IMG/VR virus record: IMGVR_UViG_3300046836_000237
Location: 1 to 48,137 of that record
Reading direction: 5' to 3' (one strand)
DNA from: a virus
DNA length: 48,137 bases
The notes beneath the pieces were generated by a model, which did not search any database, was not told the DNA's origin, and saw only the letters and a list, made by a program, of their open reading frames with translations. Below, piece after piece: positions 1,194-47,055 of the stretch. Numbering within the stretch: the first letter of the stretch is position 1; each line of letters begins with the position of its first letter. The position numbers were made by a program, and so were the translations under genes.

Positions 1194-1410
1194 GCGCGCG
1201 TAGCCATTTGTCGACGCGAACGCGTGTGCTTTTCACTGGCGCATGCTTTTGCTTGCCCAGTTCGATCCGGTGAATCGTCTGTTGGTGCACGCCCACGAGC
1301 TTCGCCAGCTCGGCTTGTGTGAGCTTTTGGGCTCGCCGCGCCTTGCGTAGCTGCAGCGAGTAGGGCGGCACACACAACACGCGTTCGAGTTCTTTTGTGC
1401 AGTACGTCAT
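1183..1410 (-). CDS. XRE/Cro-type HTH regulator, 75 aa
   Basis: Residues about 17-52 form a classic five-helix Xre helix-turn-helix (LRKARRAQKLTQAELAKLVG, then VHQQTIHRIELGK). The basic C-terminal part may be an extra DNA contact. ATG 1410 is supported by GGAGG 12 nt upstream and by an ATGA overlap with the gene before it. At 75 aa it has no dimerisation or cleavage domain. It sits late in the early operon, so it could be a Cro-like timer or late-gene regulator; the target is not visible here. Confidence 0.85.
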   Translation of the reverse strand: MTYCTKELERVLCVPPYSLQLRKARRAQKLTQAELAKLVGVHQQTIHRIELGKQKHAPVKSTRVRVDKWLRAHAE

Positions 1411-1664
1411 AGCTTCGTGGTTCCTCCGTTGCTGTTGAGTCGTTCGACGATCGCGTTTATGTGCCGACGCGCTTGCACTTCGAGATCGCACGCGCGGCTT
1501 CCGTACGTTGCCGACCATCGGATCTCACCGAGATCCCACAATCGCTTTTCGACCATTTCGAGCGCTGCGATCGCTGCTATGTGCAGCTTGTATACGTGCC
1601 GCACGAGCTCGTGTTGCTGCGCCGATTGATAGGCGTCTTGAAGCAAGCGTGCGCTCTCACGCAT
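1407..1664 (-). CDS. Hypothetical helical phage protein, 85 aa
   Basis: ATG 1664 has AGGTG nearby and overlaps the end of the preceding gene by 8 nt; the stop overlaps the start of the HTH gene (ATGA). The protein is largely alpha-helical and charged (AAIAALEMVEKRLWDLGEIR, later LEVQARRHINAIVERLN). No catalytic motif is visible. The longer open frame upstream is the antisense-like shadow of the neighbouring gene and was not used. Function unknown. Confidence 0.65.
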   Translation of the reverse strand: MRESARLLQDAYQSAQQHELVRHVYKLHIAAIAALEMVEKRLWDLGEIRWSATYGSRACDLEVQARRHINAIVERLNSNGGTTKL

Positions 1665-2205
1665 GGGCACACCTGGCCAGCGAAACAAACCACTCTGCGA
1701 GCGCGAGCGGCGTGAGTCGAACGCGCTTGCCGCCCGCACTTGGCAACCGCGATCCGCGCGGCCCGCTCGTGACTCGATGCGTAGCCGTGCCGCCGTAGCG
1801 CATGCCATGCATCACGAGATCGGGCGGCACACGCACCGTGTAGATCCACGTTGGTTTGACACAACAGTGCCCCCAACTGACTTGGTTGATCAGCCACGTC
1901 CGACCGCTGTGCGCGTCGGGTAGCTCGCCCGGGAACGGCATGCGGCAATGACGAAACAGAGTGCTATGTGCGGGGTGTTCAAGTACGCCGCCAAACGCGC
2001 GCACTTGCTCGACCGCGCGCGGTGCGCACGATGGATCTTGCTTTGTGCACATGAAGCGCAAGCGCGACCATGGGCCGCATGGTGGATGCGCGACGACAGC
2101 GTGCGGCCCGTCGTAGCGCTTCGCATCGCGCGCTACGTCCCACGCATCGACGCCAGCCATGTGCGCGTATGGGCCGCGCGGGTCGATGTACAGTGCAGCG
2201 ATCAC
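1657..2205 (-). CDS. Phage PPC-motif protein, cytosine-methyltransferase-like fragment
   Basis: A 182-aa protein starting MIAALYIDPRGPY, with a strongly conserved-looking AHPPCGPWSRLR segment near residues 39-50, then GGVLEHPAHS and a WGHCCVKPTWIY segment. Such short proteins recur in tailed-phage genomes. The PPC motif recalls the catalytic motif IV of C5-cytosine methyltransferases (nucleophilic Cys), but the SAM-binding N-terminus and the target-recognition region of a full enzyme are missing. GTG 2205 overlaps the upstream TGA (GTGA). I treat it as a conserved phage protein with possible nucleotide- or DNA-modifying ancestry; activity is unproven. Confidence 0.7.
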   Translation of the reverse strand: MIAALYIDPRGPYAHMAGVDAWDVARDAKRYDGPHAVVAHPPCGPWSRLRFMCTKQDPSCAPRAVEQVRAFGGVLEHPAHSTLFRHCRMPFPGELPDAHSGRTWLINQVSWGHCCVKPTWIYTVRVPPDLVMHGMRYGGTATHRVTSGPRGSRLPSAGGKRVRLTPLALAEWFVSLARCAHA

Positions 2206-2882
2206 GGGCGCACCGTGCCCGCCGCTGGTAGCTGCACAGACAACTCACGCACGCGCTTGGGGAGCACCTTGCCGACTTGCGGCGCGCGTGCGGCCCAACG
2301 TGCGATCAAGATCGCCGCCGCTTCGTCGTCGCCGACGCCATACGTGGGAAAGCGCGCCTTGCGTGCGATGGCACACGCGTTGACTTCGTGCTGCGCCGCC
2401 GCGATCTCGTACGGGCGCACTTCGTCGCGCTTCATACGCGTGCAACCGCGCGGCAAGATCAGCGCGCGCCACGTGACGGGGTACACAGACACGACGTGGC
2501 CGATCGAGCGGCGCGCACGCCGCCAACCCGCAAGCCAACGCTCACGCGCTGCAGCGAGACCCGCGATCGTCGACATCGAGCCGCCGTATGCGCGTTCGAG
2601 CACGAGCACGAGCGGCCGATCGCTGTTTATGTGAGCGAGCCCGCTTGCCGTCGCGATCACGTCGTCGAGTTCTTGCGCGTCGAGCGTGTCGAGCTCGCCC
2701 GAATAGGCGAGCTTGCCATCGCAGCGAATGGCCCAGCCGCTATTGGCTGCAGTGTCGACCGCGAGCACCACGCACCGCCACGCGAGCAAACTCCCGCTAT
2801 CGCGCGGTGACTTTGCGCGGGTTTTCTTTTTGGCGGGCGCGCCGAGCTGCGCGCGCAACTTCGAGATCCGAATGCGCGTCAT
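2202..2882 (-). CDS. RuvC-like Holliday junction resolvase
   Basis: A 226-aa RNase-H-fold endonuclease. Strand one carries LAVDTAANSGWAI (Asp43), the central strand LVLVLERAYGG (Glu96) and the last helix YGVGDDEAAAILIARW (Asp185/Asp186), matching the acidic metal-binding triad of RuvC-like resolvases. A basic N-terminus (about 1-30) probably binds DNA. It would resolve branched intermediates from replication and recombination before packaging. ATG 2882 overlaps the upstream TGA and has GGGAG at 10 nt; the longer upstream frame is a shadow. It lies downstream of the primase-helicase in the same operon. Confidence 0.85.
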   Translation of the reverse strand: MTRIRISKLRAQLGAPAKKKTRAKSPRDSGSLLAWRCVVLAVDTAANSGWAIRCDGKLAYSGELDTLDAQELDDVIATASGLAHINSDRPLVLVLERAYGGSMSTIAGLAAARERWLAGWRRARRSIGHVVSVYPVTWRALILPRGCTRMKRDEVRPYEIAAAQHEVNACAIARKARFPTYGVGDDEAAAILIARWAARAPQVGKVLPKRVRELSVQLPAAGTVRP

Positions 2883-8706: not shown

Positions 8707-8743
8707 TTATCTCATTGACGCGTTATCTCACGTGCGAGATAAA
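8707..8743 (+). promoter_or_regulatory. Rightward early promoter with double operator
   Basis: Two sites 16 bp apart: TTATCTC-N6 (8707-8726, right half weak) and the near-perfect palindrome TTATCTC-N6-GAGATAA (8723-8742). TTGACG (8715-8720) and GATAAA (8738-8743) are separated by 17 nt and form a good promoter inside the operators. The predicted start falls near 8750, one base before ATG 8751, so the transcript may be leaderless. Bases 8571-8706 upstream contain no gene that I can support. Confidence 0.78.
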
Positions 8744-8750
8744 CGCCGCC

Positions 8751-9977
8751 ATGCCCTGGAACTTCAAGCGCTACGGCACAGCGAGCGATCCAATACACAA
8801 GTCGCACTTGAACGCGATCACGGGCGACTACGGTTGCCCGCGTAAGTTTCGCTACGAAATGGACGCCCGCGCCGATCACCACGCGGGCGACGACGAGCGG
8901 CGTGAAGTGTCAGGCAAAGCCGCGGCGGGCACGGCTGCGCACGAGACGATCGCGCGCGCGCTCACGAATCCCGACGCCGTCGCAAAGATCTTGCTCGGGC
9001 CGGACGCGTTTACGCGCGACGCGATCCGTCATGTCTATGACATCGAGTACGAGCGCGAAGTCGCGGGGCGCGCGACGCGTTGGAACAAAGAAGACGCGGG
9101 CGACGTCGCCGACGAGCGCGTGTGGATGATCTTCGGTCTATTGAATCGCTTGCACGAACGCGTCGCGCGCGTCGAGCTTGTCGAACCTGGTTTCATCGCA
9201 CCGATCGGCGAGTACTGGCTAAGCGGTCACATCGATCTCGTGTACCGGCCCAAGTCGGCGCCCGACACGATCGCGATTTGCGACTGGAAAACAGGCGCCA
9301 GCAAACCAGATGAGATCGAGCTCGATCACGGTTGGGAGGCGGGCGTCTACTCGTCAGCGGTTCACAGCGGGCTGTTTTTGCCTCGCGAACAGATCAGGGT
9401 GTCGGAGGACAAAGGCGTCAACGTCGCCCGAATAGTCGACATCGAGCGCAGACACGCGTCCAAGTATATCGCCGAACGCGAAGCGCTCGAAGCCGCGCTG
9501 ATCGATCTTGCGAAGCTCGACGGAGAGGGGGCGCTTGAGCCGAGCTGTTACGATATTCGCGCATTCCGTGAGTTCCCCGGGCTCATTCATCACGTGCACT
9601 TGGCCGACTTCGTGCCCTACAAAAAAGCGGGCGCGAAGGAAGTGAAGCGACCCGAGGATCTCAAACACTTCGGCTACGTGCAGCCGACCAAGCACAAGTA
9701 CACCGCGGGCGAGCTGCGCGGCCCGGCATGGCTTCCGGTGAAGCTCTCCGAGTACGACATGCCGCGGCTCGAGTCGCGCCTACGCAACGTCGTCGGGTCG
9801 ATCCGCATGGGTCGTTTCATCGATCAAGTCGGCGAGCGCTGCAAACGCTGCTCGTTCAAGGGCGACTGTTTGACGGGCGGATATGCGCCGACGGGCGACG
9901 CACGCAAGTCACTCGAGCGCACGTTGCGCACGCTTCCAAGCGAAGCGCTCGACGTTGATATGTCGTTCGACGAGTAG
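8751..9977 (+). CDS. Cas4/RecB-like PD-(D/E)XK nuclease with probable Fe-S cluster
   Basis: A 408-aa protein. The nuclease core has AAHE (His64), GHIDLVY (Asp162) and AICDWKTG (Asp178, Lys180), the PD-(D/E)XK motifs of RecB/Cas4 nucleases. Cys29 (YGCPRKFRY) together with Cys364, Cys367 and Cys373 (CKRCSFKGDC) reproduces the one-plus-three cysteine layout that holds a 4Fe-4S cluster in Cas4 and AddB. It is first in the rightward operon with an ssDNA-binding-like protein and RecD2-like helicase parts, suggesting DNA-end processing for recombination. ATG 8751 lies just after the promoter; the frame upstream runs through the operator. Confidence 0.85.
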   Translation: MPWNFKRYGTASDPIHKSHLNAITGDYGCPRKFRYEMDARADHHAGDDERREVSGKAAAGTAAHETIARALTNPDAVAKILLGPDAFTRDAIRHVYDIEYEREVAGRATRWNKEDAGDVADERVWMIFGLLNRLHERVARVELVEPGFIAPIGEYWLSGHIDLVYRPKSAPDTIAICDWKTGASKPDEIELDHGWEAGVYSSAVHSGLFLPREQIRVSEDKGVNVARIVDIERRHASKYIAEREALEAALIDLAKLDGEGALEPSCYDIRAFREFPGLIHHVHLADFVPYKKAGAKEVKRPEDLKHFGYVQPTKHKYTAGELRGPAWLPVKLSEYDMPRLESRLRNVVGSIRMGRFIDQVGERCKRCSFKGDCLTGGYAPTGDARKSLERTLRTLPSEALDVDMSFDE

Positions 9978-10026: not shown

Positions 10027-10896
10027 ATGTCCAAAGCAGCAGCAAAGTCAGACGCGCTCGCAACGGCTCCGACCACGGCACTCGCGACAGGCCCCGTCGA
10101 CGCGCTCGCGGGCCTAGAACTACCGTCCGATTACAACGATGGTCTGTCCGAGGTCGAGCGCGAAGACATCAAGATCAGCGCGCGCGTGTTCAACTTCAAG
10201 GGCGTTGGCAAGAACGGGCGCAAGATCCCCGAAGACGAGTTTTACGACACCGTCGACGAAACCGTGTCGCAGTCGATCGATGCGGTGTTTATCGACATGC
10301 ACAAGACGCACCTTTACACGGTGTATGACAACGAAGAAAAGCGTAACCGCATCGTGTGCCGCAGCTTCGACCGTGTGACTGGCACAATGGAGGATGGCAC
10401 CGATCGCCCGTGCAAGGGTTGTCCGGACTGGCAATGGCGCAAGGATCCCGAGACGGGCAAGCGCACGAAGAATTGCGGGACCGTAGTCAACATGTACTCG
10501 GAGGATCGCGCGACGCGTGCGCCGTTCCTGATCCGCTTCAAGCGCACGAGCTTGCCCGTGATCATGCAGCACCTGCAAAAGCATCACATTTTGCGCCGCA
10601 TGCTTCCGGGCGGCGTGCGCGGTCACTACCCGCTCTTCATCTACCCGGTAAAACTCACGTGCAAGATGAGCGATAACGGGAACTATGCGATCCCGGTTGT
10701 CGAGCGCGGCGAGCAGTTGTCGAACGACGAAATCATTTCGTACGCACGCCAAGCAACCGAGCTGCGCGAGTCGTTCCTCGCGGCGGCCGAGCGGCTCGAG
10801 ACTCAGGTCGAATCGCAGACGTCGGCGGAAGCCGGAGACACCTCATTCGATACGGACAAGTTCGAGCAAGGCGCTGGTCAAAACTTCGTCGAGTGA
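10027..10896 (+). CDS. Putative phage ssDNA-binding / recombination protein
   Basis: A 289-aa protein with a Thr/Ala-rich N-terminus, a core (DIKISARVFNFKGVGKNGRK, ending near SLPVIMQHL) and an acidic tail (EAGDTSFDTDKFEQG), a layout shared with phage SSB proteins of the gp2.5 kind. Four cysteines (C-x13-C-x2-C around DRPCKGCPDW, then KNCGT) could form a zinc site. GGGAGAGA lies upstream of ATG 10027. The place between the Cas4-like nuclease and the RecD2 N-terminal part supports a role in coating or handling single strands. Fold assignment is inference. Confidence 0.6.
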   Translation: MSKAAAKSDALATAPTTALATGPVDALAGLELPSDYNDGLSEVEREDIKISARVFNFKGVGKNGRKIPEDEFYDTVDETVSQSIDAVFIDMHKTHLYTVYDNEEKRNRIVCRSFDRVTGTMEDGTDRPCKGCPDWQWRKDPETGKRTKNCGTVVNMYSEDRATRAPFLIRFKRTSLPVIMQHLQKHHILRRMLPGGVRGHYPLFIYPVKLTCKMSDNGNYAIPVVERGEQLSNDEIISYARQATELRESFLAAAERLETQVESQTSAEAGDTSFDTDKFEQGAGQNFVE

Positions 10897-10905
10897 TCGC
10901 GCACT

Positions 10906-11895
10906 ATGCCGACCATCGAAACAGAAGCCGCCCGCTTGGTCGGGCGGCTTTCGGAGTGGAACGCCCGCGGTCAAAAGGGTTGGGGCTTTGGCAAGCTCAC
11001 CGACGAAGCGGGCGCGGTGCACTCGATCAAGGGGCGCACACTCGGCGCACGCGTCGGGCTCACACTCGAGCTCGTCGGGCACTGGCAAGATGACCCGACG
11101 TACGGGCGACAGTTTGATATCCGCACGTGCGTTGCGCGTGTGCCGTCGGACGCCAGCGGTGTGATCGCGTGGATTAGGGACACGTTCCCCAACGTCGGCG
11201 CCAAGCGTGCGGCCGCACTGCTTGAGCACTTCGGAGGCCCGGACGCGCTGTGGCGTGTTGTCGAGCACGAGCACGAGCGGCTCGCCGAAGTGTCAGGCAT
11301 TACCGGCGAGACTGCCGAGCGCATCCGTGCGGCCTATCTCGAAGACAAGTGCGACCGCGACAACAAAATCAAGCTGCGCGGTTGGGGTCTCACAGACTCG
11401 CAAATTGCGCGGTGCCTCAAGGAATGGAAAACGCTCGACACCGTCGTGCAACGCGTGTCGGCGAACCCCTTTCAGCTCACGCACCACGTGCATGGGTTTG
11501 GTTTTAAGAAGGCAGACGAGGTCGCGGCGCGCGCGAAAATGCCGCACGACGCGCCCGAGCGCATACGCGCCGCGCTCGAGTTCGTGCTCGAACAGGCGAT
11601 CGACGCGGGACACTGTTTCATCTCGGGCGCGCAGCTGCAGCGCGACGCGGTGAAGCTGTTAGGTGTGCCGCCCAAGCTCGTCGCGCGCGAAATCTACCGC
11701 GCTTCACAGCACAAGGTTGTCGCGCGACGCGCGCGTGACTGGCGCTGTTACAGCTCGCGAATGGAACGGCTCGAAGCCGCCGCCGCCGAGCAAGTCGCCA
11801 TGTTGATCACCTCCGACGCAGTCGAAGAAACCGACGACCCTCATGCTTCGCTCGAAACTACCGATCCCGTCCCGCCGCGCGATCTATTCAATTGA
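10906..11895 (+). CDS. RecD2-like N-terminal part (OB fold plus helix-hairpin-helix), split gene
   Basis: A 329-aa protein corresponding to the part of RecD2 that precedes the motor. Residues about 12-80 look like the OB domain (VGHWQDDPTYGRQFDI); residues 85-190 carry the helix-hairpin-helix region (IRDTFPNVGAKRAAALLEHF, then LAEVSGITGETAERI). The protein stops after MERLEAAAAEQVAMLITSD, where intact RecD2 would run into its first ATPase motif. No Walker motifs are present. The missing motor is encoded separately at 13108-14367, beyond four small genes. The two chains probably assemble. Confidence 0.8.
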   Translation: MPTIETEAARLVGRLSEWNARGQKGWGFGKLTDEAGAVHSIKGRTLGARVGLTLELVGHWQDDPTYGRQFDIRTCVARVPSDASGVIAWIRDTFPNVGAKRAAALLEHFGGPDALWRVVEHEHERLAEVSGITGETAERIRAAYLEDKCDRDNKIKLRGWGLTDSQIARCLKEWKTLDTVVQRVSANPFQLTHHVHGFGFKKADEVAARAKMPHDAPERIRAALEFVLEQAIDAGHCFISGAQLQRDAVKLLGVPPKLVAREIYRASQHKVVARRARDWRCYSSRMERLEAAAAEQVAMLITSDAVEETDDPHASLETTDPVPPRDLFN

Positions 11896-12229
11896 TGATC
11901 ATGAGGCGAACCGCAAGCACGTCGCGCACGCGCTCGGCGTGCTTGCGGGCGAGTCGCTGCTCGACTGCGCCTACCGCTACTATACCGAACACCACGCCGC
12001 CACCGACGCGGCTGTCAGAGCACTCCTTGATTACGTATTGGGCGGCGACATGCCGTCGCCGCCGATAGCTGCACAGCACCGCACAGCCGCAAACCCCGAC
12101 CGACTCGTGCGCCTAGCGATCGCGGTGACGCTCACTCAGGCGTTCGCTGACTCGGATAGCGCGTTTGTGCGCGCGATCGACATCGCAGCCAAGACACTCG
12201 ATCAACACTTCGCAGAGGGAGGCACGTGA
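11843..12229 (+). CDS. Hypothetical protein between the RecD2 halves, 128 aa
   Basis: ATG 11843 overlaps the end of the RecD2 N-terminal gene by 53 nt, and no later ATG gives a sensible protein. The product is helical (HEANRKHVAHALGVLAG, TDAAVRALLDYVLGG, later DSAFVRAIDIAAKTLDQHF). No family is recognised. It is the first of four genes that separate the two helicase halves and is coupled to the next gene by an overlap. It might be a partner of the split helicase or an unrelated insertion. Confidence 0.6.
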   Translation: MLRSKLPIPSRRAIYSIDDHEANRKHVAHALGVLAGESLLDCAYRYYTEHHAATDAAVRALLDYVLGGDMPSPPIAAQHRTAANPDRLVRLAIAVTLTQAFADSDSAFVRAIDIAAKTLDQHFAEGGT

Positions 12230-12732
12230 CCACCATGGGAGTACTAACAGACGCCGCACCGCGACCACTCGTCGTGATCGAATCGCCACTCATGGGTAAG
12301 GTGCCGCTATGGGTGCCGACCCTTTTTTATCCGCTTGTCGAATGGATGCTGCGACGGCGCAACATGCGATACGCATTCGCGTGCGTGCGTGACTCGCTGG
12401 CGCGCGGCGAGGCACCATACGCATCGCACGTTTTTTTTGACCGTCGCGGGCTCCTAAACGACGCGATCCCCGATCAACGAAACCTCGGGATCGAAGTCGG
12501 TTTCGCATGGGGACGTCCCGCCAAGCTGCGCGCGGTGTACTGCGATCACGGGATCAGCGGCGGCATGTCGCTTGGCATCGCGCAGCGCCCCTACGGCCAA
12601 CAGCTCGACTACCGCCATTTGTACTTGCCAAAAAAGGCGCGGCCCAACGTGTGTCTGGATTGCGGCCGCAACGCGTTCCCCGGATCTGACAGCTGCGGAC
12701 TGGGCTCGTGCCAGGAAATGATCGCGCCATGA
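12226..12732 (+). CDS. DUF7768-like phage protein, nucleoside 2-deoxyribosyltransferase-like fold
   Basis: A 168-aa protein. Residues 17-100 (VIESPLMG, then NMRYAFACVRDSLARGEAPY, ASHVFFDRRGLLND and LGIEVGFAWG) match a widespread phage family, DUF7768, related to nucleoside 2-deoxyribosyltransferases. The C-terminus carries a small Cys cluster (CLDCGRN, then SCGLGSC) that could bind zinc and is not typical of the core family. Such proteins may act on nucleotides or nucleotide signals; activity is unproven. GTG 12226 overlaps the preceding stop. Confidence 0.75.
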   Translation: MTTMGVLTDAAPRPLVVIESPLMGKVPLWVPTLFYPLVEWMLRRRNMRYAFACVRDSLARGEAPYASHVFFDRRGLLNDAIPDQRNLGIEVGFAWGRPAKLRAVYCDHGISGGMSLGIAQRPYGQQLDYRHLYLPKKARPNVCLDCGRNAFPGSDSCGLGSCQEMIAP

Positions 12733-12923
12733 CGACCACCGATCTCATGCTCGAGATGATCACCAAGTTCTCGCTTGCCGAGCGGTTGCGCACCGCCGCC
12801 GGACTGCTCGACGACGCGCGTGCGGGGAGGTCCGACCCGCGCGCGCTCACAGCACACGCACAAATGATCGTCGCGAACGTCCAAACACATTTGATCGAAG
12901 GGTTGAGGCCCGAGCGCTCATGA
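12729..12923 (+). CDS. Small helical protein, 64 aa
   Basis: ATG 12729 overlaps the preceding TGA (ATGA), so this start is preferred to the codon at 12708. The protein is helical and charged (MTTTDLMLEMITKFSLAERL, then RTAAGLLDDARAGR). No motif is recognised. It lies third among the four genes separating the helicase halves. Confidence 0.6.
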   Translation: MTTTDLMLEMITKFSLAERLRTAAGLLDDARAGRSDPRALTAHAQMIVANVQTHLIEGLRPERS

Positions 12924-13111
12924 CCATCGTTTTCTACATGTCGCACGCGAACAGGATTCGGTTGCACGTTGCGATGGCGGTTGAGCGCTACGGACGGGCT
13001 CACAGTCCGCGAACGTTTAGCCCTGTGTACGTAGCAGCGCTCGCGGTGGGGAACGCAGTCGCCGCCCGCTCCGAGGATCGAGACGACGAACGCCGCGAGT
13101 TCGTCTCATGA
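12920..13111 (+). CDS. Small protein, 63 aa
   Basis: ATG 12920 overlaps the TGA of the preceding gene, and the stop overlaps ATG 13108 of the helicase motor gene. The protein has a hydrophobic start (MTIVFYMSHANRIRLHVAMA), a middle segment (VYVAALAVGNAVAARSE) and an acidic end. It could be a small scaffold or regulator, but I do not recognise it. Coupling to the helicase suggests matched expression. Confidence 0.58.
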   Translation: MTIVFYMSHANRIRLHVAMAVERYGRAHSPRTFSPVYVAALAVGNAVAARSEDRDDERREFVS

Positions 13112-14367
13112 CAACCGCCGAACCACCGATCGAACTCGACGACTCACAGACGCTCGCCGTCGACCTCATGACGTCGAACCGCCACGGGCTCACGATCATC
13201 ACGGGCGGCCCGGGTCGCGGAAAAACCATGTGCCTAAAGCACGCGCTCGACATGCTCGACGCGCGCGGCGTGAAATACGAACTGTGCTCACCGTCCGGCA
13301 AAGCCGCGAAGCGCATGCAGGAAGCGACGGACCGCGAGTCGCAGACCATTCACCGGTTGCTTGCCTACCATCCGGAGATTGGGTTTCGCCGCTGCGCCGA
13401 ATGGCCGCTCGAGACGCGCGTCGTGTTTATGGACGAGTCGAGCATGCTCGACATCGAGCTCGCCGCCGCGTTCTTTACCGCGGTCAAACCGGGTCGCACG
13501 CGCGTCGTGATGATCGGCGACGTTGACCAACTCCCGCCCGTCGGACCGGGCCGCGTGTTCGGTGACCTCATTGACTCGGGCCTCGTCAAGACCGCGCGGC
13601 TCACGAAGCTACACCGCTCGGCAGCTGGCTCATGGGTTGCCGTGAACGCGCCGCGCGTGCTCACGGGAGGCCCGCTCGATCTCGAGCCGCGCGCCGACTT
13701 CCGTTTCGTGCGTGTCGCGAGCGCGGTCGACGTAGCGAAGGCGGTGTGCGCGGTCGCAGCTGAGCACAAAGCAGACCGCAAGCGTAGCCAAGTGCTCGTG
13801 CCGCAAAAAGCGGGCGACGCTGGGATCGAGTCGCTCAATGGCGCTCTCCAGCGAATACTCAACCCGCTCGAGTCGGTCGACGAGCTGCATATCAGGCGCA
13901 AAAAGTACGTGCTGCACACGGGCGATCGCGTGATTCAGACGCGCAACGATTACCAGCGCAACGTGTTCAACGGCGAGGCGGGCGAGATCGCGTCAATGGT
14001 CGACGGTGAGATCGTGGTCGACTTCGAAGAAGCGCGCGGCGCGCGCGCTGTGACGTATTCAAACGAAGCAACCGAAGCGCTCACGCTCGCCTACGCGCTC
14101 ACGATTCACAAGTCACAGGGGAGCGAGTTCGATCACGTGATAGCGGTCGTGCACTCGTCGCACGCGCACATGCTGAGTCGACAGCTTTTCTACACCGCGA
14201 TCACGCGCGCCAAAAAGTCGGTGACGATCATTGGCGACGACAAAGGGATCAAGGGCGCGCTGTCAAACGGGCGCGTTGAGAAACGCAACACGACTCTGAT
14301 CGAGCGGCTCAAGGGCGAGCTCGACGACGTGATCGACGACTCCAGTTATGAAGGCGGTGCGGCATGA
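13108..14367 (+). CDS. RecD2-like SF1B helicase motor, split gene
   Basis: A 419-aa protein with nearly all the RecD-type SF1 motifs: Walker A GGPGRGKT (33-40), motif Ia SPSGKAAKRM plus TIHRLL, Walker B-like VVFMDESS (DE at 109-110), motif III GDVDQLPPVGPG (137-148), GDRVIQTRNDY, the TIHKSQGSEF motif and the YTAITRAKKSV motif. It lacks the N-terminal OB/HhH part, which is encoded at 10906-11895. Together the two total 748 aa, close to one RecD2. It should translocate 5'-3' on ssDNA and probably works with the Cas4-like nuclease. ATG 13108 overlaps the preceding stop. Confidence 0.9.
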   Translation: MTTAEPPIELDDSQTLAVDLMTSNRHGLTIITGGPGRGKTMCLKHALDMLDARGVKYELCSPSGKAAKRMQEATDRESQTIHRLLAYHPEIGFRRCAEWPLETRVVFMDESSMLDIELAAAFFTAVKPGRTRVVMIGDVDQLPPVGPGRVFGDLIDSGLVKTARLTKLHRSAAGSWVAVNAPRVLTGGPLDLEPRADFRFVRVASAVDVAKAVCAVAAEHKADRKRSQVLVPQKAGDAGIESLNGALQRILNPLESVDELHIRRKKYVLHTGDRVIQTRNDYQRNVFNGEAGEIASMVDGEIVVDFEEARGARAVTYSNEATEALTLAYALTIHKSQGSEFDHVIAVVHSSHAHMLSRQLFYTAITRAKKSVTIIGDDKGIKGALSNGRVEKRNTTLIERLKGELDDVIDDSSYEGGAA

Positions 14368-15029
14368 TGTCCGACGGCAAGATCGACGCCGATGCGTTTC
14401 CACTCTACTGGCCCGAGGCATGGCCACGCACGCTACCGTCGCGACGCCGCCGCACCGCGCGCTTCAAGGTCTCGTTTGCCAGCGCACGCGATCGCGCGGT
14501 GCGCGACCTCAAGACGGGCGGCGCGTCGGACGTGATCATCTCGACAAACATCCCGCTGCGCCGCGACGGGTTGCCGCGGCAGGACGTGATCGCGCCGAGT
14601 GATCCGGGCGTCGCGGTGTACTGGATTGACCACGGCGCGCACCGCGTGATCGCGTGCGATCAATGGACCACTGCGCGCGACAACATGCGCGCGTGCGGGC
14701 TCGCGATCGAAGCGCTGCGCTCACTCAAGCGCTCGGGCGCCACGCAAGTGATCGATCGGGTGTTTGGTGGCTTCGCTGCTTTGCCGGCGAGCACTGCGTC
14801 GAGTGCTGCGCCCGAGCGGCCATGGCGCGCGGTGCTCGACCTTGACGCGACCGAAAAGTTTCCCACGATGATCCTTCGGTCGCTCGTCGAGCAGGCCTAT
14901 CGGCTCAAGGCGCGCACCGCGCATCCGGACGCGGGCGGCTCGAATGACGCCATGATCGCGCTCAACCGCGCCCGCGCCCAAGCGCTGGACTACTGCGACG
15001 GGCGCGACGCAAACGGGGCCCGCCCGTGA
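14364..15029 (+). CDS. Phage J-domain protein
   Basis: A 221-aa protein. The first 140 residues match a phage family by pattern (PLYWPEAWPRT, later ASDVIISTNIPLRRDGLPRQ and VAVYWI). The C-terminus carries a J-like helix-loop-helix with the HPD tripeptide at 187-189 (KARTAHPDAGGSNDAMIALN), the element by which J-proteins stimulate Hsp70. It could recruit host DnaK to a replication or recombination complex. ATG 14364 overlaps the helicase stop (ATGA); ATG 14367 is a possible alternative start. Confidence 0.82.
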   Translation: MMSDGKIDADAFPLYWPEAWPRTLPSRRRRTARFKVSFASARDRAVRDLKTGGASDVIISTNIPLRRDGLPRQDVIAPSDPGVAVYWIDHGAHRVIACDQWTTARDNMRACGLAIEALRSLKRSGATQVIDRVFGGFAALPASTASSAAPERPWRAVLDLDATEKFPTMILRSLVEQAYRLKARTAHPDAGGSNDAMIALNRARAQALDYCDGRDANGARP

Positions 15030-45157: not shown

Positions 45158-45397
45158 CTAGACTGTATGTCTGACACAACGGACGCTAATAGCGCTGCGT
45201 CCCCAGCGATCGGGCGAGATCCCGTAAATGCTCCACAGCCGCTCGCGTGACTCGGCCGATGGCGTTGTTAGTCCTGACACCCAATTGCTTACGCGCGGCT
45301 GTTTCACCCCGCAACGCGCAGCCACTTCCAGTTCGCTCGTGCGCTGTAGCAACGCGATCAGACTCCGACGGCTCGTGACTACGGGTGTCATCGCCAT
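45158..45397 (-). CDS. Small HTH protein after the large terminase, 79 aa
   Basis: ATG 45397 has AGGAG 7 nt upstream and overlaps the terminase end by 10 bases. The HTH is SELEVAARCGVKQPRVSNWV, followed by ESRERLWSIYGISPDRWG, much like the N-terminus of the protein at 47484-48104. It may regulate late genes or be an extra DNA-binding part of the packaging machine. The frame upstream of 45397 is a terminase shadow. The 41 bp before the portal gene show no other gene. Confidence 0.75.
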   Translation of the reverse strand: MAMTPVVTSRRSLIALLQRTSELEVAARCGVKQPRVSNWVSGLTTPSAESRERLWSIYGISPDRWGRSAISVRCVRHTV

Positions 45398-47055
45398 GTA
45401 TTCGCTCCTGCGTACGGGTCCATGATAACGGGTGCGTAGTTTTCGCTTGCTGCGGCGTGCTGTTGTCCGCCCGCTGGCAGCGCTTCGAGCAAGCTCAACG
45501 GCTCCCACGCCGACATTGCCAGCGCGTCGTAGCGGTCGGGTGAGCGGCCGATCAGTTTGCGGATCTTGTCCTTGGGCGTGACCTTGAGTCGACCGTTCAG
45601 CGCCTTCGACCATTCGAAGGCATGTAGCTCGCGCTCGAGTTTCACATCCTCGAGAATGGCGCCGCCGTCGCGAAACCACTGTTCGAGGTTCGCAGCGAGC
45701 TCGTCGCGCATGCGGTCGTAAATTTTCGGGAGGCGCATGGCCTTGTCTGACGCGCGCAGCCCGGTCACCTCGAACGATCCCGGGTTGGCGTCGGCGTAGT
45801 CGAGCAGCATGCGATATAGCTTCGAGCCGATCGAGCCTTCGCGGTCAACGATCACCACGGGTGTTTCGCGCGGCAGCTTGAGCAAGCGAATGTAATGCAG
45901 CAGCTGCGCAAGGTGTCCCGCTTCGTCGAGTCCCAAGTGCGCGCGTAGCAAGAGTTGCTTGAAGCCGCGACGCGCGCTGAATGCTGACTCGTCGCCCGTG
46001 CCCGACTCGCCCGCGGGATCAAGCCCGATATACAGCCGCCCCGCCTCGGGCGTGTCGGCCCATTTCTGCTGCGACGTAAGGATCGTGTGAATAGAGAAGA
46101 TCTTGCCAGCTTCGGCGATCGCGTGCTTGCCCTTGACGCGAATGCAATACAGCGCCGAGTCCGGTCCCCACTCTTCGCGCTTTTCTTCGATCCATTCGGA
46201 CGTGGCGAGGCCCGGTATCACCACGCGCTTTTGTACGACGTTCGGAGTTTCTTCGCTCGAAACTGTAAGCGTCTTGTAGTGTCCGGCCTTCCCATGGAAA
46301 GCCTCGTAAAACTCGCCTTCGTTCTTCGTTGGGTTGCCAAACATCACGATACGAGCACCGCCCGCGCGGTTACCCTCGATAGCCTCGAATATCTCGTCGG
46401 GCACGCCCGACGCTTCGTCGATGATGTAAAGCAGGTTGCGACCGCTGATCCCCGCGACCGCTTCGGCCTCGCGCGCAGTGAAGCCGACGATCTCGCGAAA
46501 GTCGCGCGACTTGAGCCCAGTGCGCGCAAGCTCTCCAAGATCACCGTCGATGATCGCTGAATGCGGGCACGGTGCGGGGATCACGAAACCGTCAGGATCG
46601 GCCGCCTTGCAGTCGTTACACCGACCGCTGCGCGCGCGCATCATTTTGAGTTCGCGCCAAAGGATTTGATCGACTTGGCGCGACGTCGTCGACGTCATCA
46701 CCACGCGCGCGTCGGGGAAGCTGCAGTAAAACCACAGCGCGATCCCCGCGGCGGTGTGCGACTTCGAGACCTTGTGACCGCTGCGCACCGCGACGCGCGG
46801 GTGTTCGCGCACGGCTTCGATGATCTCGACTTGCTTCGCCCATGGTTTGACGCCGAGCACGTCGCGAAAGAAGCGCACGGGCTCGGCGGCGTAGATTGGC
46901 GAGGGGAACCGCACCGCGGTCATGTTCGCGACCGCCGCTTTGGCCGAAATCAGGAAGTCCCGCGAAAACGTCAAGAGCGTTCCCGCGGGCTCGTCGTCGT
47001 CGGCACTCTCGCGGCGGCGCTTGGCGAGCTCGTACGCTTTGGAAGCGGTCACCAT
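45388..47055 (-). CDS. Large terminase subunit
   Basis: A 555-aa packaging motor. Walker A-type RSGHKVSKSHT (91-101), Walker B LLYIIDEASG (Asp213, Glu214), motif III-like IVMFGNPTKNEG, then a nuclease domain starting YIGLDPAGESGTGDESAF (Asp346). Within the ATPase, Cys146, Cys149, Cys163 and His165 form a possible zinc knuckle that I do not expect in most large terminases. The gene follows small terminase and precedes portal, the standard order. A Mu gp28-like headful mechanism is likely. Confidence 0.93.
   Translation of the reverse strand: MVTASKAYELAKRRRESADDDEPAGTLLTFSRDFLISAKAAVANMTAVRFPSPIYAAEPVRFFRDVLGVKPWAKQVEIIEAVREHPRVAVRSGHKVSKSHTAAGIALWFYCSFPDARVVMTSTTSRQVDQILWRELKMMRARSGRCNDCKAADPDGFVIPAPCPHSAIIDGDLGELARTGLKSRDFREIVGFTAREAEAVAGISGRNLLYIIDEASGVPDEIFEAIEGNRAGGARIVMFGNPTKNEGEFYEAFHGKAGHYKTLTVSSEETPNVVQKRVVIPGLATSEWIEEKREEWGPDSALYCIRVKGKHAIAEAGKIFSIHTILTSQQKWADTPEAGRLYIGLDPAGESGTGDESAFSARRGFKQLLLRAHLGLDEAGHLAQLLHYIRLLKLPRETPVVIVDREGSIGSKLYRMLLDYADANPGSFEVTGLRASDKAMRLPKIYDRMRDELAANLEQWFRDGGAILEDVKLERELHAFEWSKALNGRLKVTPKDKIRKLIGRSPDRYDALAMSAWEPLSLLEALPAGGQQHAAASENYAPVIMDPYAGANTWR

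Follow-up and report, generated by a model that had tools for sequence, protein, structure and literature searches.

RecD2 (YrrC) is a superfamily 1B (SF1B) helicase represented by the family model TIGR01448 and by structures of the Deinococcus radiodurans enzyme (3e1s, 3gp8, 3gpl). Its N-terminal domain of about 280 residues was called uncharacterised in a 2025 study and is suspected of driving strand switching at forks (PMC12143592). RecD2 is a single chain in the structures, in four bacterial loci and in other fused viral loci. Here we describe a locus with two RecD2 genes in the window, a 48,137-base stretch of DNA that is the complete IMG/VR virus record IMGVR_UViG_3300046836_000237, an uncultured tailed-phage contig. 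One gene encodes the N-terminal domain (N half) and the other the helicase motor, and their domains, domain order and motifs are like those of the D. radiodurans enzyme. Sequence comparison and structure prediction make it probable that the locus encodes a two-chain RecD2 that assembles without a covalent link, a variant form of a known enzyme.

Related arrangements differ from this locus in several respects. RecD (RecD1) of RecBCD is also an SF1B motor and its N-terminal domain contacts RecC (PMC12143592), but RecD1 belongs to a complex encoded by three genes and has a short N domain, whereas in the window the N domain itself would be the second subunit. Phage genes in pieces include NrdA of Aeromonas phage Aeh1, split by mobE, the T4 topoisomerase gene 60, split by mobA, and gene 43 (DNA polymerase) of phage 25/44RR; for NrdA and the phage 25 polymerase, an active enzyme is reported to arise from the pieces (PMC2988022). 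As with NrdA, gene 60 and gene 43, a phage replication enzyme is encoded here as two chains with genes between them, but the enzyme is a different one, the cut lies at a domain border and the gap content varies between relatives. In contrast to genes split by homing endonucleases, the window gap encodes no recognisable homing endonuclease, although another split locus (L188) carries an HNH endonuclease. A search of the open-access literature, with subscription papers outside its scope, found no report of a split RecD2.

The two window genes match one helicase family in complementary stretches. The N half aligns with positions 28-300 of TIGR01448 (E 3.1e-45, 154.5 bits) and the motor with positions 313-712 (E 2.3e-120, 402.9 bits). 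The curated cut-off of this model for one polypeptide is 500 bits, which neither chain reaches alone and the summed score of 557 bits exceeds. In phrog_4412, the phage exonuclease V / RecD2 family of 743 positions, the halves match 48-306 and 328-739, respectively; this family model represents the fused protein and no split is described for it. In 3e1s, residues 13-123 are matched by the N half and residues 189-569 by the motor (E 3.6e-73). Pfam matches are OB_YrrC, HHH_5 and HHH_RecD2 (4.4e-20) in the N half and AAA_30, AAA_19, SH3_13 and UvrD_C_2 in the motor. The SF1B features Walker A/B, motifs III-VI and the SH3-like 2B domain are present in the motor, with the motifs kept in three aligned split motors. 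In an alignment with four intact phage RecD2s, the halves together span the full length of the protein. The split point is in the linker, with the last N-domain helix, RLEAAAAEQVAML, on one side and the Q motif (LDDSQ) and Walker A (GGPGRGKT) of the motor on the other. The 1,212 bases from the N stop to the motor start are filled by four overlapping small open reading frames (ORFs). The first of these ORFs begins within the N gene and shares its last 53 bases, and every later joint, the one with the motor gene included, is a GTGA or ATGA stop/start overlap, so that the N and motor genes lie in one coupled gene run. An earlier sequence-only reading of the window had proposed that a 329-residue OB/helix-hairpin-helix (HhH) part and a 419-residue motor add up to one RecD2, that the break lies just before the first ATPase motif and that four coupled genes occupy the gap, and the profile matches, the alignment and the overlaps, respectively, bear this out. 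Given the match of the two halves to complementary parts of one family and the recurrence of the split in other phages, the arrangement is far beyond chance.

To the window we added related viral loci, obtained through a terminase search and enlarged by scans with aligned split motors and with aligned N parts; three single-protein scans yielded few or no relatives. Removal of duplicates left 88 fused and 31 split loci, the latter including that of phage Rctr197k, which was set aside (see below), leaving 30 distinct viral contigs from many metagenomes with a two-gene RecD2, the window counted. The sequence-only reading had proposed looking for the same split in relatives, and these contigs contain it, mostly at the same linker. 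The N gene lies upstream of the motor gene, adjacent and on the same strand, in 30 of 30. Almost all have an N half that stops behind one common helix and a motor whose start immediately precedes the LD.SQ motif. In the complete records of the split contigs, TIGR01448 gave half-matches and no intact copy. The distance from the N stop to the motor domain is near zero in 10 loci, about 150-530 bases in nine and about 690-2,080 bases in 11. About a third of the pairs abut or overlap, joined by GTGA, ATGA or short overlaps (L127, L128, L133, L136, L142 and others), and the others hold one to about seven small genes. Near relatives from independent assemblies agree with each other (L117/L118, L123/L126, L150/L162). 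G013 and G028 have the same split as the window with different gap genes, and G014, G019 and G027 hold an intact RecD2 at the same syntenic place.

The distribution of the split indicates that the two-gene RecD2 is a lasting arrangement, not a broken gene, and that it is kept across a phage clade and arose more than once. Most split contigs form one clade with a common replication-gene module. In a concatenated N and motor tree of 57 rows, the window falls in a 26-row clade (97/95) that comprises 21 split members and, nested among them as a tight group (100/99), five fused ones; support for the 26-row clade is lower in a 40-row tree (85/86). The whole 57-row tree needs at least 8 changes of state, meaning that splits also arose outside the window's clade, namely in L131, L133, L109, L188, L170/L177 and the large-genome phages L136/L150/L162. 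Forcing the core splits together is not rejected (approximately unbiased (AU) test, p 0.148), although the best tree nests five intact genes among them, which favours a split followed by re-fusion. One split and later re-fusion in the nested intact members is thus the favoured but unproven history suggested by the tree. The fused loci L132 (G019), L141 (G014) and L158 (G027) carry, at the very linker position of the split in the others, a CxxC..H zinc-ribbon-like insert that may be a re-fusion scar. The ratio of nonsynonymous to synonymous substitution rates (dN/dS) is below 1 for both halves in all close pairs for which it is computable (0.07-0.53), indicating purifying selection on both. Conserved N-domain residues and motor motifs are kept across 40-50% identity.

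Structure prediction is consistent with assembly of the halves as in RecD2. Because the window N half, gap and motor share one frame, they were read through as a single chain as a modelling device for AlphaFold2, with alignments limited to full-length rows, as MAFFT placed N rows on the motor in mixed alignments. The resulting model has a predicted template-modelling score (pTM) of 0.67, with 424 of 1,153 residues disordered, the gap among them, and most of each half has a predicted local distance difference test (pLDDT) score above 90. Since about 63% of residues are ordered, independent placement of the halves would not be expected to give so high a pTM. Foldseek superposes the window model on 3gp8/3gpl with a template-modelling (TM) score of 0.87 spanning both halves, a predicted packing like that of the D. 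radiodurans enzyme; the motor alone gives a TM of 0.70 against 3e1s. For an independent pair, L101, whose short linker is non-coding in that frame, pTM was 0.85 and TM 0.84. The contact between the chains that the sequence-only reading had proposed to predict is predicted in both models, within the limit that the alignments contained intact homologues. The divergence of the N half correlates with that of the motor at r 0.77, the highest of six gene pairs among four neighbouring genes.

Several observations weigh against assembly of the two chains. Besides intact homologues, the AlphaFold2 alignment included the read-through chains of four other split loci, and the RecD2 crystal structures, public since 2008-2009, were very likely part of the AlphaFold2 training data. 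With fused homologues in the alignment and public structures, the model represents no independent test and shows compatibility rather than binding. The partial correlation of N and motor divergence is 0.55, barely above the 0.52 found for N and exonuclease. In G065/L167 the halves are located about 8 kb apart on opposite strands and tight co-expression is not always kept. The earlier proposal of a clean two-chain RecD2 is supported by the 30 contigs, more strongly than the window alone could show, and binding of the N chain to the motor is what we infer.

In the favoured two-chain RecD2, the first polypeptide would contribute the OB fold, the HhH parts and a winged-helix-like region, and the second a complete ATP-driven motor with its SH3-like domain. 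The chains would be made in step from one transcript and bind non-covalently at the usual interface between the RecD2 N domain and motor. The predicted product is a working 5'-3' helicase in a phage replication and recombination module of primase-helicase, PD-(D/E)XK nuclease and RecD2, and the border between the chains may have become a place of gain and loss for small cargo genes that ride in the operon. In these phages RecD2 has been cut exactly between N domain and motor, repeatedly and with both pieces kept. Separately made chains, when mixed, would let the effect of the N domain on binding, processivity and strand switching be tested without an engineered truncation, and the intact, abutting, cargo-filled and unlinked forms of RecD2 allow comparison. 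A helicase would also join the short list of phage replication enzymes in pieces.

A more novel reading, which we consider doubtful, is that the freed N chain is a subunit in its own right and links the RecD2 motor to the PD-(D/E)XK nuclease in a multi-chain helicase-nuclease with a RecBCD-like layout, the N chain being shared or exchanged. This is hinted at by the fixed order of neighbouring genes across the clade (PD-(D/E)XK nuclease, the phrog_23155 gene g289, RecD2 N gene), by N divergence tracking both motor and nuclease at the partial correlations given above while the motor-nuclease value is -0.15, and by the unlinked halves of G065. The nuclease, the phrog_23155 gene and RecD2 could possibly form a phage helicase-nuclease module. 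Slightly less likely still is a parting of functions, in which the N chain would serve on its own in DNA binding or as an adaptor and the motor would act alone, like Pif1 or Dda. A crystallised RecD2 lacking its first 150 residues still translocates (PMC12143592), so that a motor can function when most of the N domain is missing, and the separation in G065 would fit as well. The two genes are nevertheless neighbours in constant order in the 30 contigs, and the window motor is far closer to RecD2 than to Pif1 or Dda. Four contigs showed the motor only, and no contig was shown to have retained one half only.

Dedicated subunits of a split helicase are an improbable role for the inserted small proteins, which the sequence-only reading had considered as possible partners. 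Their genes are stop/start-coupled to N and motor, and two types recur, a DUF7768 protein in the gaps of seven of the 30 split loci and a small helical protein in four. However, no gap gene is universal among the 30 split loci, about 10 of them have none, and DUF7768 is encoded outside RecD2, downstream of it, in the intact relatives G014, G019 and G027. Of the window gap genes, gene 2 matches Pfam DUF7768 (1.1e-16), phrog_24212 (5.9e-21) and phrog_355 (2e-10), while genes 1, 3 and 4 gave no family match in Pfam, phrog and TIGR profile searches of the window proteins; none of the four matches a nuclease family, homing endonucleases included. Gene 1 has no relative among the gap ORFs of other split loci, and gene 3 is weakly related to gap genes of L100, L101 and L122. 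Other gaps contain unrelated cargo, such as an MT-A70 methyltransferase in L124, a MUG113/GIY-YIG-like protein in L100 and, in the independent split L188, an HNH endonuclease with a homing-endonuclease-associated repeat (L188:6314-6817), which plausibly brought about the L188 split much as with Aeh1 NrdA. The L112 gap includes a DnaJ-like gene (L112:5870-6526) whose window counterpart directly follows the motor, implying that genes move across the motor. Gap content across the split loci rules out the gap genes as general partners, and they appear to behave as exchangeable cargo at an operon border rather than as fixed subunits of the two-chain RecD2.

That one protein is made after all, through splicing of the gap as an intron or through programmed bypassing, is highly improbable: mobile-intron-type nuclease genes do occur in some gaps (HNH in L188, GIY-YIG-like MUG113 in L100), but the window region and nine other split loci contain no Rfam match, group I and II introns included, a gap is lacking altogether in about 10 split loci, the halves have a stop or start of their own, and the gap sequence varies between relatives. 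Just as remote is a broken RecD2, a pseudogene or an assembly or frameshift artefact with the pieces as remnants of one dead gene, as the intact relatives G014, G019 and G027 might suggest: the 30 contigs of many metagenomes are split mostly at the same linker, the motors have proper start codons of their own, whole genes lie in the gaps, independent assemblies agree, dN/dS shows purifying selection on both halves and all helicase motifs are intact, so that the split is not the frameshift in an intact relative that had been raised against it.

The RecD2 of Rctr197k (L006, KX853510; 5917-8427), considered as a second split in a named record, was rejected. It has the look of a RecD2 broken by in-frame stops and probably also by an upstream frameshift, and so illustrates the appearance of a decayed copy. 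It is annotated as recD2_2 and recD2_1 and is broken at a different point from the window-type split.

Table 1. Features of the split RecD2 locus and its neighbours in the window.
Feature	Position	Strand	Remarks
PD-(D/E)XK exonuclease	8715..9977	+	PF12705 2.7e-15; synteny; syntenic neighbour of RecD2 in clade
g289 (phrog_23155), gene of unknown function	10027..10896	+	between exonuclease and RecD2 N gene in clade
RecD2 N-terminal chain	10906..11895	+	329 aa; OB fold, HhH, HHH_RecD2, winged-helix-like part
Gap gene 1	11843..12229	+	128 aa; no family
Gap gene 2	12226..12732	+	165-168 aa; DUF7768 / nucleoside 2-deoxyribosyltransferase-like
Gap gene 3	12729..12923	+	64 aa (71 aa from GTG at 12708); small helical protein
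Gap gene 4	12920..13111	+	63 aa; orphan; stop overlaps motor start (ATGA)
RecD2 motor chain	13108..14367	+	419 aa; SF1B helicase core with SH3-like domain, motifs all intact
DnaJ-like phage protein (phrog_9210)	14364..15029	+	coupled to motor gene

The minus strand of the window carries the terminase, portal, head, sheath and tape-measure genes, and the plus strand carries the replication module and an integrase. The closest match of the window motor among isolated phages is 38% identical and a fused protein, so no cultured phage of the window's clade was found. In G065, taken as L195, the N half occupies 10515-11441 (+) and the motor 1400-2716 (-), and beside the N half lies an ERCC4-like nuclease gene, a neighbourhood also found in the fused locus L001. 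Relatives of the window large terminase (45388-47055), the best of them sharing 53-62% identity, occur in bacterial genomes from the same phylum as L191, a Myxococcales metagenome-assembled genome, and our guess at a host from this phylum is based on this hint. A RecD2 search of seven terminase-bearing genomes of that phylum gave no N-half match and hence no split pair; these genomes contain intact RecD2 together with other partial helicase matches.

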